Assembly (NCBI RefSeq): GCF_016786255.1
Contig: NZ_JADMKT010000078.1
Coordinates: forward strand, 124,001-188,000
Reading direction: 5' to 3'
Length of the DNA: 64,000 bases
Origin: Robertkochia sediminum
GTDB taxonomy: Bacteria > Bacteroidota > Bacteroidia > Flavobacteriales > Flavobacteriaceae
Shown here: positions 57,011 through 62,322 of the stretch, in pieces
Position numbering within the stretch: the stretch's first letter is position 1
Layout of the letters: each line of letters opens with the position of its first letter
Made by a program: the position numbers and the translations under genes
The notes under the pieces: generated by a model
The model's database searches: none
Seen by the model: the letters and a program-made list of their open reading frames with translations, nothing else
What the model was told of the DNA's origin: nothing

Positions 57011-58144
57011 TTATAACATGCCTTTGGTCGTAGGCAATATCATTTTTTCAGGATCTTGTTTTATCGCCATTTTAATAGCTTTTGCAAAAGCTTTGAAGAT
57101 CGCTTCGATCTTGTGATGCTCATTGGTTCCTTCGGCCTTGATATTCAGATTGGCCTTGGCGCCGTCTGAGAACGATTTAAAGAAATGCAGAAACATCTCT
57201 GTTGGCATTTTTCCGATCATCTCCCTGTTGAATTCGGCATCCCACACCAGCCAGTTTCTTCCACCAAAATCAATAGCTACCTGCGACAGACAGTCGTCCA
57301 TTGGCAAACAAAATCCGTAACGTTCAATACCCCGTTTATCACCCAGAGCCTGTGCAAAAGCTTCTCCCAGGGCTATGGCCGTATCTTCTATGGTGTGATG
57401 CTCATCGACCTCCAGATCACCATCTACAGTAATTTCAAGATCTACTTGTCCGTGTTTCCCAAGTTGATCGAGCATATGATTAAAAAAAGCAATTCCGGTA
57501 TTGTTCTTCGTCTTTCCGGTACCGTCGAGGTCCAGGGCTATAGTAATATCAGTTTCTTTGGTAGTTCTTTTGATCAACGCCCTTCGACTTCCGCCAAGTA
57601 ATAATCTGGTAATGGGCTCCCATGATGCAGATTCGAGTGCAATGGTATTGGCCAGCGCTATTTTATCGTCTTTCAGTTCTGCACTTCCCAGGTTGCGGCC
57701 GTTATCAATAAAGATCCCCTTACACCCTAGATTCTCTGCCAATTTCATATCGGTAAGACGGTCACCGATCACATAGGAGCCTTCCATGTCGTAAGTACCT
57801 TCCATATAGGCGGTTAAAGCTCCGGTATTGGGTTTTCTAAAAGGGGAGTTTTCCTCGGGAAAGGTCTTATCGATCACCACCTCTTTAAAGAAGATCCCTT
57901 CTCCTTCGAGCGTGCGCATGATAAAGTTGTGTATGGGCCAGAATGCATCATCCGGGTATGCGTCTGTACCCAAACCATCCTGGTTGGTTACCATGACCAG
58001 TTCGTAATCTCCCTTTTGACAAACTTTAGCCAGACCGCTAAGTACCCCGGGGAGAAACTCCAGCTTCTCCAGGCTATCTACCTGTTCGTCTTCAGGTTCC
58101 CTGATCAGGGTTCCGTCCCTGTCTATAAATAATATCTTTTTCAT
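57011..58144 (-). CDS. hisB: Bifunctional histidinol-phosphatase / imidazoleglycerol-phosphate dehydratase
   Basis: The fused HisB carries two histidine-pathway steps. Residues ~1-165 are a HAD-type histidinol phosphatase ([14 protein letters not shown], catalytic Asp in [18 protein letters not shown]). Residues ~185-377 are the IGP dehydratase with the metal-binding [23 protein letters not shown] and the C-terminal [18 protein letters not shown]. The fusion order matches enterobacterial HisB. It is 8 bp after hisC in the operon. Confidence 0.97.
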
Positions 58145-60524: not shown

Positions 60525-61388
60525 TTAGAGCACCATTTTTTCAATAGGACAAACCAGAATACCTTCAGCACCCTGTGCTTTGAGCTCATCGATGATCTGC
60601 CAGAATTTATCCTTTTCAATAACGGTATGCAGGGAACTCCACCCCTCCTCTGCCAAAGGCAATACAGTTGGACTACGCATTCCCGGTAAGATCTTAATAA
60701 TGGCATCTACCTTTTCATTAGGGGCATTGAGCAATACATATCGGGAATCCCTTGCCTTAAGGACCGAACGCAAACGGAACAAGAGTTTGGCAAGCAATTC
60801 ACGCTGTGCTGAACCTATTTGTGGTGAAGTAGCCAAAACAGCCTCACTCTCGAGAATGGTTGATACCTCCTTCAGGTTATTTTTAAAAAGGGTACTACCA
60901 CTCGATACGATATCGACGATAGCATCTGCAAGACCTATGTTCGGAGCGATCTCAACACTCCCACTGATCATGTGAAGTTCTGCATTAATACCCTCTTGTT
61001 CAAGAAAGCGATTTACCGTGTTCGGATAAGAGGTAGCAATTCTTTTGCCTTCTAAATCGCCGAGACCATTTAGTTCCTGCTCTTTTGGGATCGCCAGAGA
61101 AACGCGGCACTTAGAAAATCCCAGGCGCTCGACGATCTCAAGCTCTTCTCCTTTCTCAATAAGAAGATTCTCCCCGATGATCCCTATATCGGCTACGCCA
61201 TCGCGGAGGTATTTAGGGATGTCGCCGTTGCGAAGGTACATGACCTCAAGTGGGAAGTTACGCGCTCTTACCTTAAGCTGATCATGCCCGTTATCAATGG
61301 AGATCCCGCAATCTTTGAGGATCTTTAAGGATTCTTCAAAAAGTCTGCCCGACTTCTGAATTGCGATCTTTAAAGGTGTTGTACTCAT
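60525..61388 (-). CDS. hisG: ATP phosphoribosyltransferase (long form)
   Basis: HisG is the first, feedback-controlled enzyme of histidine biosynthesis. The 287-residue length is that of the long form. Residues ~1-205 form the catalytic domains (PLKIAIQKSGRLFEESLKILKDCGI, IPKYLRDGVADIGIIGENLL, ADAIVDIVSSGSTL). The C-terminal ~75 residues form the ACT-like regulatory domain (RYVLLNAPNEKVDAIIKILPGMRSPTVLPLAEEGW), so no HisZ is needed. The ATG at 61388 is chosen because the family starts near STTPLKIAIQKSGRL; the longer frame would run into the attenuator. It is the first gene of the operon. Confidence 0.97.
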   Translation of the reverse strand: MSTTPLKIAIQKSGRLFEESLKILKDCGISIDNGHDQLKVRARNFPLEVMYLRNGDIPKYLRDGVADIGIIGENLLIEKGEELEIVERLGFSKCRVSLAIPKEQELNGLGDLEGKRIATSYPNTVNRFLEQEGINAELHMISGSVEIAPNIGLADAIVDIVSSGSTLFKNNLKEVSTILESEAVLATSPQIGSAQRELLAKLLFRLRSVLKARDSRYVLLNAPNEKVDAIIKILPGMRSPTVLPLAEEGWSSLHTVIEKDKFWQIIDELKAQGAEGILVCPIEKMVL

Positions 61389-61430
61389 ATTAAAAGTCTT
61401 TTTTTTAATGGATTTGAGCACAGGCCGGTA

Positions 61431-61466
61431 ATAAAAAACACCCGCCTGAATACTCAAACGGGTGTT
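61431..61466 (-). terminator. Attenuator terminator of the his operon
   Basis: On minus-strand RNA a 13-bp stem (AACACCCG with CGGGUGUU, extended by U-G, U-G, U-A, G-C and A-U pairs) encloses a GUAU loop and is followed by UUUUUU. It lies between the His-rich leader peptide and hisG, 43 bp before the hisG start. The 5' arm (61453-61460, ctcaaacg on the plus strand) can instead pair with the leader segment at 61504-61511. Confidence 0.9.
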
Positions 61467-61497
61467 AATGATATTTTATGTACTGCACATAACCATC

Positions 61498-61554
61498 CTA
61501 CCTCGCCTGAGCCAGTGGAAAATGATGATGATGATGTACAAATACGGTGTTCAT
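61498..61554 (-). CDS. hisL: his operon leader peptide (18 aa, five consecutive His codons)
   Basis: A short open frame encodes MNTVFVHHHHHFPLAQAR and ends at TAG. Codons 7-11 are five CAT histidine codons. It lies 110 bp before the end of the leader region, just downstream of a promoter (61577-61609) and upstream of an intrinsic terminator (61431-61466), with hisG beyond it. This is the architecture of ribosome-mediated transcription attenuation. When His-tRNA is scarce the ribosome would stall in the His run, leaving codons 15-17 (CTCAGGCG in RNA sense) free to pair with the 5' arm of the terminator (CGTTTGAG), blocking it. When His-tRNA is plentiful the ribosome reaches the stop, covers that segment, and the terminator forms. 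The mechanism is established for his operons in enterobacteria; here it is inferred from sequence. Confidence 0.88.
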   Translation of the reverse strand: MNTVFVHHHHHFPLAQAR

Positions 61555-61576
61555 GTTTTCTTTAAAAAGATATGAA

Positions 61577-61609
61577 CAAATATAACGTATAAAATTTCAG
61601 AATTACAAA
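61577..61609 (-). promoter_or_regulatory. Promoter of the his operon
   Basis: On the minus strand TTTG (61606-61609) and TATATTTG (61577-61584) are separated by 21 bp, close to the Bacteroidota promoter consensus. The leader-peptide start lies 22 bp downstream, giving a 5' leader of roughly 15 nt. Confidence 0.65.
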
Positions 61610-61770
61610 CATTAGCATCCTGATTAACGTAAATTTTACAAATAGCACAACAAAGTCCTCTAAACGAATGATTTATGATGATTGCGCAATATTTTTTATA
61701 TATTAGAGACAGCGAAATCTTACTTTTAGTTAATTATAAATTGTATATCCCCATCTAATACTTATCTATA

Positions 61771-62322
61771 ATGGAATCTTCGGTCATCTATTTTACCTCT
61801 GCTGCTTTCTGGACCTTTATCATCCTGTCCTTTGGTATGGGCTATCTGATCGCTAATATTTTTACCCGTAATAAATACCGACAACAATTGGATAAATGCC
61901 AGTTGGAAAAAAGTATGCTCCTCAACAATGTCAAAGAGCAGGAAGAAGAGATCGTAGAACCGATCGGCGTCAAGGCCATACAAACGCGTGGTCGTAGCGG
62001 GATTCCGGTAAAAGAACCTGCCAAACGAGTCGTGAAGCCAAAAAAGAACGAAGAAAAGATCGATTTTGATCGTATAGGAGAAGGGTCTCCTGAGAACCGT
62101 GATGACCTGCAAAAGATAGACGGTATAGGCCCGTTTATCGAACAGCAATTAAATGAAACAGGCATCTACAAGTACCTTCAGATAAGCAGGTTGAACGAGA
62201 GCGATATCAAGATCATTACAGCACAATTGGATTTTTTCCCCGGACGCATAAAACGCGACAGGTGGATCGAACAGGCTGCAACTCTTTATCATGAAAAAGA
62301 ACGTGTTGCCAAAGAAGCTTAA
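61771..62322 (+). CDS. Membrane protein with helix-hairpin-helix domain
   Basis: A 183-residue protein. Residues ~10-30 form a single membrane helix; residues ~35-60 are a charged helix (RQQLDKCQLEKSMLLNNVKEQEEE). After a basic linker (PAKRVVKPKKNEEK), residues ~105-175 hold a helix-hairpin-helix-like module: RDDLQKIDGIGPFIEQQLNETGIYKYLQISRLNESDIKII. Similar modules occur in proteins of unknown function that bind nucleic acid or act as protein-interaction domains. The function is not known. It is divergent from the his operon and convergent with the SPFH gene. Confidence 0.82.
   Translation: MESSVIYFTSAAFWTFIILSFGMGYLIANIFTRNKYRQQLDKCQLEKSMLLNNVKEQEEEIVEPIGVKAIQTRGRSGIPVKEPAKRVVKPKKNEEKIDFDRIGEGSPENRDDLQKIDGIGPFIEQQLNETGIYKYLQISRLNESDIKIITAQLDFFPGRIKRDRWIEQAATLYHEKERVAKEA

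Follow-up and report, generated by a model that had tools for sequence, protein, structure and literature searches.

The window analysed here, a 64,000-nucleotide stretch of Robertkochia sediminum DNA (contig NZ_JADMKT010000078.1, positions 124,001 to 188,000), carries on its minus strand a histidine operon that begins with hisG and is preceded by what is very probably a ribosome-mediated transcription attenuator of that operon. Read directly from the sequence, the minus-strand order is a promoter-like site, a leader open reading frame (ORF), a terminator and hisG (Table 1). An initial annotation of this DNA had described an 18-codon leader frame with five His codons and a TAG stop, a 13-bp intrinsic terminator with a U-run 31 bp after that stop, and hisG downstream; all of these were found where it placed them, and every coordinate it gave was correct when the sequence was reread. 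The leader frame is MNTVFVHHHHHFPLAQAR, and the terminator, AACACCCGTTTGA-GTAT-TCAGGCGGGTGTT, forms 13 pairs, lies 31 nt past the leader stop and is followed by TTTTATT. The leader RNA (61572-61430) has a predicted folding energy of -40.4 kcal/mol, whereas its shuffled versions average -24.9 (z -4.84), and none of 200 shuffles was as stable. The region thus holds what identifies a his attenuator, namely a His-run ORF before his genes, an intrinsic terminator and, by prediction and covariation, an antiterminator exclusive with it. The new element at this locus is segment D, which links the terminator to the region before hisG.

Table 1. Coordinates of the his leader features in the window
Feature	Position	Strand	Details and basis
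Promoter-like site	61577..61609	-	TTTG at 61609-61606, 21 nt spacer, TATATTTG at 61584-61577; read directly
Leader ORF	61498..61554	-	18 codons, ATG at 61554, stop TAG; leader and terminator in 211/213 family regions
Five CAT (His) codons, sensing site	61522..61536	-	Read directly
Hairpin P1	61480..61545	-	17 bp; 61545-61527 (codons 4-10) with 61497-61480; leader minimum free energy fold, covariation
Segment A, antiterminator arm	61500..61512	-	End of the leader frame, into the stop codon; 12-bp duplex with B
Small hairpin TTATGT-GCAGT-ACATAA	61476..61492	-	In the antiterminator domain, exclusive with P1; predicted folds
Terminator hairpin	61437..61466	-	5' arm B 61466-61454, loop 61453-61450, 3' arm C 61449-61437; predicted folds
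Terminator U-run	61430..61436	-	Read directly
Segment D	61412..61428	-	Complementary to B, the loop and part of C; 16 bp, interrupted; -19.3 kcal/mol
hisG	60525..61388	-	ATG at 61388; Pfam HisG and HisG_C

Conservation of this arrangement was examined upstream of hisG in related genomes. HisG searches gave a match in 42 of 60 relatives, 134 of 149 family genomes and 87 of 197 class genomes, and the best 80 loci were kept from a search of GTDB contigs. Upstream regions were taken from all 134 family genomes, from seven order-level genomes (leaving out G044, G052, G053 and G057) and from 60 of the 79 class-level genomes with a hisG match (leaving out 19); the window shares its genus with Robertkochia marina (L031), whose DNA is identical to that of the same-genus locus L002. 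Removal of identical leader-terminator DNA left 213 family regions, whereas the family counts given below over 219 loci, as well as the permutation sets and the order- and class-level counts for segment D, predate the removal of eight further duplicates, four of them common to the first and second sets of loci used for segment D. When a leader was defined as an ORF with at least three His within eight residues, leader ORF and terminator were both present in 211 of the 213 distinct Flavobacteriaceae regions, and the remaining two retain a terminator, together with a His-poorer frame readable by eye. Both features were likewise present in 7/7 order-level regions. At class level (n=60), 37 regions have both, 16 a leader without a strong terminator, two a terminator only and five neither, assignments that were made mechanically and are doubtful by eye for some loci (L241, L244, L273). 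Runs of three or four His occur in 204/219 family leaders.

The CAT run by itself would be little proof of regulation, because CATCATCATCAT has seven matches in the R. sediminum genome, two overlapping ones within this leader and the rest elsewhere. That a His run and a hairpin should stand by chance ahead of an ordinary operon is nevertheless hardly credible, given their conservation at the same place in 211/213 regions, the covarying pairings described below and the stability of the leader fold.

Some class-level leaders look different. Those of L281-L285 are His-rich and lack a strong terminator, and the sequence around their final His codons and stop could fold into a hairpin (e.g., CATCGCC-GATAGGCGATA in L281); they may represent another type of his leader. 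In L255, L262, L269, L286 and L287 the leader ends in HHSS-stop with a stop-spanning palindrome (TTCCTCY...RAGGAA type) and again no strong terminator.

The switch proposed in the initial annotation rested on an 8-bp pairing of CTCAGGCG (61511-61504), near the 3' end of the leader ORF, with CGTTTGAG (61460-61453) in the 5' arm of the terminator. These segments are indeed complementary, but they are only the core of a 12-bp A:B duplex with one bulged A (-16.9 kcal/mol). The corresponding motif C[TA]CA[AG]GCGA[GAC] is exact in 128/219 family leaders, in one frame in 125 and in another in three. Beside this, L005 and L030 keep a CTCARGYGAG segment despite another reading frame or its lying across an earlier stop, which points to a constraint on the RNA rather than on the peptide. 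Pairing of A with B was better than in shuffles (p<0.05) at 176/219 family and 17/44 order and class loci. The duplex varies little within the family and covaries across the class (z -6.8), where A and B differ in sequence yet still match, as with GGTAAGT and GCTTACC in L261. Loss of the His run or of the alternative pairing in relatives had been named as a test of the proposed switch, and it came out in favour of the switch, with His codons conserved and A:B covarying class-wide.

Covariation was assessed by permuting pairing partners among loci and by a closest-pair test. With a single genome per genus in the family (n=109; L222-L224 dropped), permutation gave z -9.8 for P1, a hairpin that joins leader codons to post-stop RNA, -8.0 for A:B, -15.5 for B plus the loop with D, and -4.9 for the D zone with the hisG start, compared with -1.0 and 0.8 for control pairings. 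The corresponding values for the order and class loci (n=41 to 44) were -5.7, -6.8, -4.6 and -2.8, with controls at -0.5 and 2.7. Permutation exaggerates significance among related genomes, and the closest-pair test is safer; in closest-relative pairs drawn from the 213 family regions it compares a segment's own partner with the one swapped in from the other member of the pair, relatedness being leader similarity rather than a tree. The own partner was better in 73 pairs and the swapped one in 17 for B plus loop with D (10 ties), and in 47 and 26, respectively, for P1 (30 ties). This test is imperfectly neutral, with a bias that disfavours own pairs: for one control, post-stop RNA with the pre-hisG region, the own partner was better in 32 pairs and the swapped one in 58, and for the other control in 29 and 26.

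On the leader ORF, P1, A:B and B:C, which sequence, folding and covariation establish, we infer the following regulatory steps. When His-tRNA is scarce, a ribosome would stall in the His run and open P1, since the 5' strand of P1 carries the first His codons, and A would be freed; free A would then pair with B, so that the terminator is not formed in time and hisG is transcribed. When histidine is plentiful, a ribosome at the leader stop would cover A, allowing B:C to form and transcription to stop. The initial proposal already put the antiterminator arm in the last part of the leader ORF, where a stall would free it and a ribosome at the stop would cover it, and modelled folds that use assumed ribosome footprints support this. 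For RNA ending at the terminator loop, stalls modelled at His1 to His4 gave the full A:B duplex and a stall at His5 a shorter one, and a ribosome at the leader stop left only the terminator B:C. The best fold of the whole leader without a ribosome is P1 plus the terminator, and we infer a protecting role for P1.

The initial annotation also held the layout to be simpler than that of enterobacteria, a view that falls with hairpin P1, which is predicted and covaries over the first His codons, because P1 joins leader codons 4-10 to post-stop RNA. The small TTATGT-GCAGT-ACATAA hairpin that it had suggested as a pause site is present but does not appear to be a separate element: it sits inside the antiterminator domain and has its 5' strand in common with P1, and formation of P1 excludes it in the predicted folds.

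Several results weigh against the attenuator as described. P1 beats shuffles (p<0.05) in only 72/219 family loci (19/43 among the order and class loci), and the closest-pair result for A:B is marginal (own partner better in 23, swapped in 11, 69 ties, p 0.058). RNA that ends at the loop and carries no ribosome is predicted to fold best as A:B rather than P1. After arm C has been made, B:C wins in all of the ribosome states modelled; the decision between A:B and B:C must therefore be kinetic.

Segment D, which is absent from the initial account of the switch, lies between the terminator and hisG and complements both the 5' arm B and the variable terminator loop. We know of no counterpart of it in the enterobacterial his attenuator. 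D of the window (p 0.001, 1000 shuffles) stops 22 nt short of the hisG AUG, and at four other loci of the same genus p is 0.001 or less and D ends 14 to 30 nt before the AUG; with a shorter query, D of the window is not loop-specific (swap rank 0.5). Compared with dinucleotide shuffles, D reached p<0.05 at 68/104 loci of the first set and 69/109 of the second, and the locus's own loop was among the best 5% of all loops for D at 51/104 and 57/109, respectively. With D anchored on the stem part, the six loop-side positions formed 3.60 own pairs compared with 2.74 permuted in the first set (104 anchored) and 4.23 compared with 2.97 in the second (106 anchored, order loci included); none of 5000 permutations in either set did as well, and the outcome was the same after collapse to unique combinations. 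These results and the closest-pair test indicate, from sequence, folding and covariation, that the pairing of B plus loop with D is real in about two-thirds of the family. When D was counted as present at p<0.05 and -8 kcal/mol or lower (136 family loci), its 3' end lay 13-16 nt before the AUG in 94/136. By a stricter rule D is present in 131/213 family regions, in 47 loop contexts. Beyond the family, D reached p<0.05 at 5/7 order-level loci and at 11/45 order and class loci together, including L242 and L274. At the place of D, L086, L105 and L110 have a REP-like inverted repeat between terminator and hisG.

The near-constant distance of D from the AUG, together with its tracking of the loop, suggests a role at initiation. 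Between -20 and +20, initiation regions of Flavobacterium johnsoniae are little structured; structured elements are mostly inhibitory, and adenines at -12/-13 favour initiation and may be read by bS1, according to the parts of PMC6847099 that bear on this. A stem ending near -13 would intrude on such a low-structure region, and we therefore tentatively propose D as a second, translational tier on read-through mRNA. There, D would take B unless A still holds it, and the resulting stem, which usually ends 13-16 nt before the AUG, would lower hisG translation; one leader ribosome would thereby act on both transcription and translation. If this is true, an arm that tracks a fast-changing terminator loop would carry a single ribosome-based sensor from transcription to translation.

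It is also possible, though less likely than not, that regulation is left entirely to P1, A:B and B:C, with D no more than a stem for the folding or stability of read-through mRNA. About one-third of the family has no D or a weak one yet retains both leader and terminator (24 of the 86 family regions without D, counted before the last duplicates were taken out, have less than 35 nt of room), and B:C is predicted to be stabler than B:D in 134/153 loci, by a median of 3.6 kcal/mol; both facts count against a translational tier. B:D has the lower energy in 19 of these loci and is within 3 kcal/mol of B:C in 62. A stem of that kind would hardly account for D tracking the variable loop in 73 as opposed to 17 closest pairs, or for the near-constant spacing to the AUG.

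Another reading makes B:D the ON state: D would hide the hisG start codon (D:E) and B would release it. D pairs with AUGAGUAxx in some lineages, among them the window in its predicted read-through fold, and D:E reaches -6 kcal/mol or lower at 28 of the 56 ATGAGTAAA loci and at 4/4 ATGAGTACA loci; the D zone covaries with the start in the one-per-genus set, as given above, and start, D and loop show matched changes within one genus (L207 compared with L222). The closest pairs do not bear this out (own partner better in 43, swapped in 37, 21 ties, p 0.58; 43 and 41 with the last duplicates still included), D:E over -12 to +60 of hisG is significant in only 12/71 loci, and no locus with start ATGACAAAA (0/20) or ATGTCAAAA (0/8) has it, so that we consider this reading unlikely. 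Pairing of D with the start codon was accordingly dropped as the general role of D, given the closest-pair result and its absence from most other lineages. Complementarity of D to the hisG start (AUGAGUAxx) was seen in L001 (window 61428-61386), L207 and L222-L224.

Alternatively, leader RNA released at the terminator might target D in hisG mRNA in trans, in the manner reported for the trp leader RNA of S. meliloti, and the same B/D complementarity would serve. This is very unlikely, since a cis partner, B, sits on the same molecule as D, and in 11 genomes with one common D sequence 11 of the 15 exact 13-mer matches are at hisG, the other four being elsewhere, in two genomes. No wider set of D targets was seen with the one exact 13-mer searched in these 11 genomes.

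As a likeness to known systems, the element shares with the enterobacterial his attenuator (RF00514) a leader with His codons, a hairpin overlapping the leader ORF, an alternative antiterminator, an intrinsic terminator and hisG downstream; sequence likeness beyond the His run was not sought. RF00514 scored the window leader at 30 bits, short of its gathering score of 49. As a finder of sister leaders it was set aside, giving scattered matches in eight genomes, none above the cut-off, with the window leader not among the matches listed. At gathering level no Rfam family matched anywhere in the window, and the element would therefore escape routine annotation; T-box, Bacteroid-trp (RF01692) and Flavo-1 (RF01705) were not among matches up to E 10 over 61300-61700.

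Both leader-peptide attenuation in flavobacteria and a conserved, structured element at hisG have been mentioned in print before. The part of PMC9723704 available to us reports, for Flavobacterium psychrophilum, strong clues that leader peptides attenuate amino-acid operons, and a structured 5' element of hisG that is conserved in the family. That element is very probably the one described here, although for hisG that part describes neither a leader peptide nor P1, A:B or D. In bacilli and other Firmicutes, histidine leader peptides also have a short ORF, a His run and candidate alternative hairpins (PMC2965389, PMC9413887); they belong to another phylum, the genes are hisS/hisZ in PMC2965389, and the sections consulted describe no D-like arm. 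The trp leader of B. subtilis, as treated in the relevant part of PMC3913778, combines a terminator switch with a second structure by which the ribosome binding site of the first gene is sequestered; its sensor is a protein (TRAP), whereas here it would be the leader ribosome, and a translational effect is here only a proposal. Segment D went unmentioned in those portions of the open PMC literature on such leaders that came up in a search not aimed at D. A his attenuator that is family-wide and widespread in the class would imply that, over this leader at least, these Bacteroidota couple transcription to translation.

The site upstream of the leader ORF was labelled by what we take to be the promoter consensus. 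A TAnnTTTG hexamer within 60 nt of the leader start occurs at 85/219 family loci compared with 22/219 after shuffling, so that the Bacteroidota-type promoter of the initial annotation is present as sequence and moderately supported as a promoter. Adjoining it, a divergent 183-aa ORF (window 61771-62322, plus strand) matches no Pfam family at E 0.001. By Pfam, hisG is followed by a histidinol dehydrogenase, a class I aminotransferase and an imidazoleglycerol-phosphate dehydratase (IGPD)/HAD fusion, then by a class I glutamine amidotransferase and two His_biosynth proteins, and from that order we name the genes hisD, C, B, H, A and F. HisB (window 57011-58144, minus strand) combines a HAD-like phosphatase part with IGPD, the bifunctional arrangement of E. 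coli.
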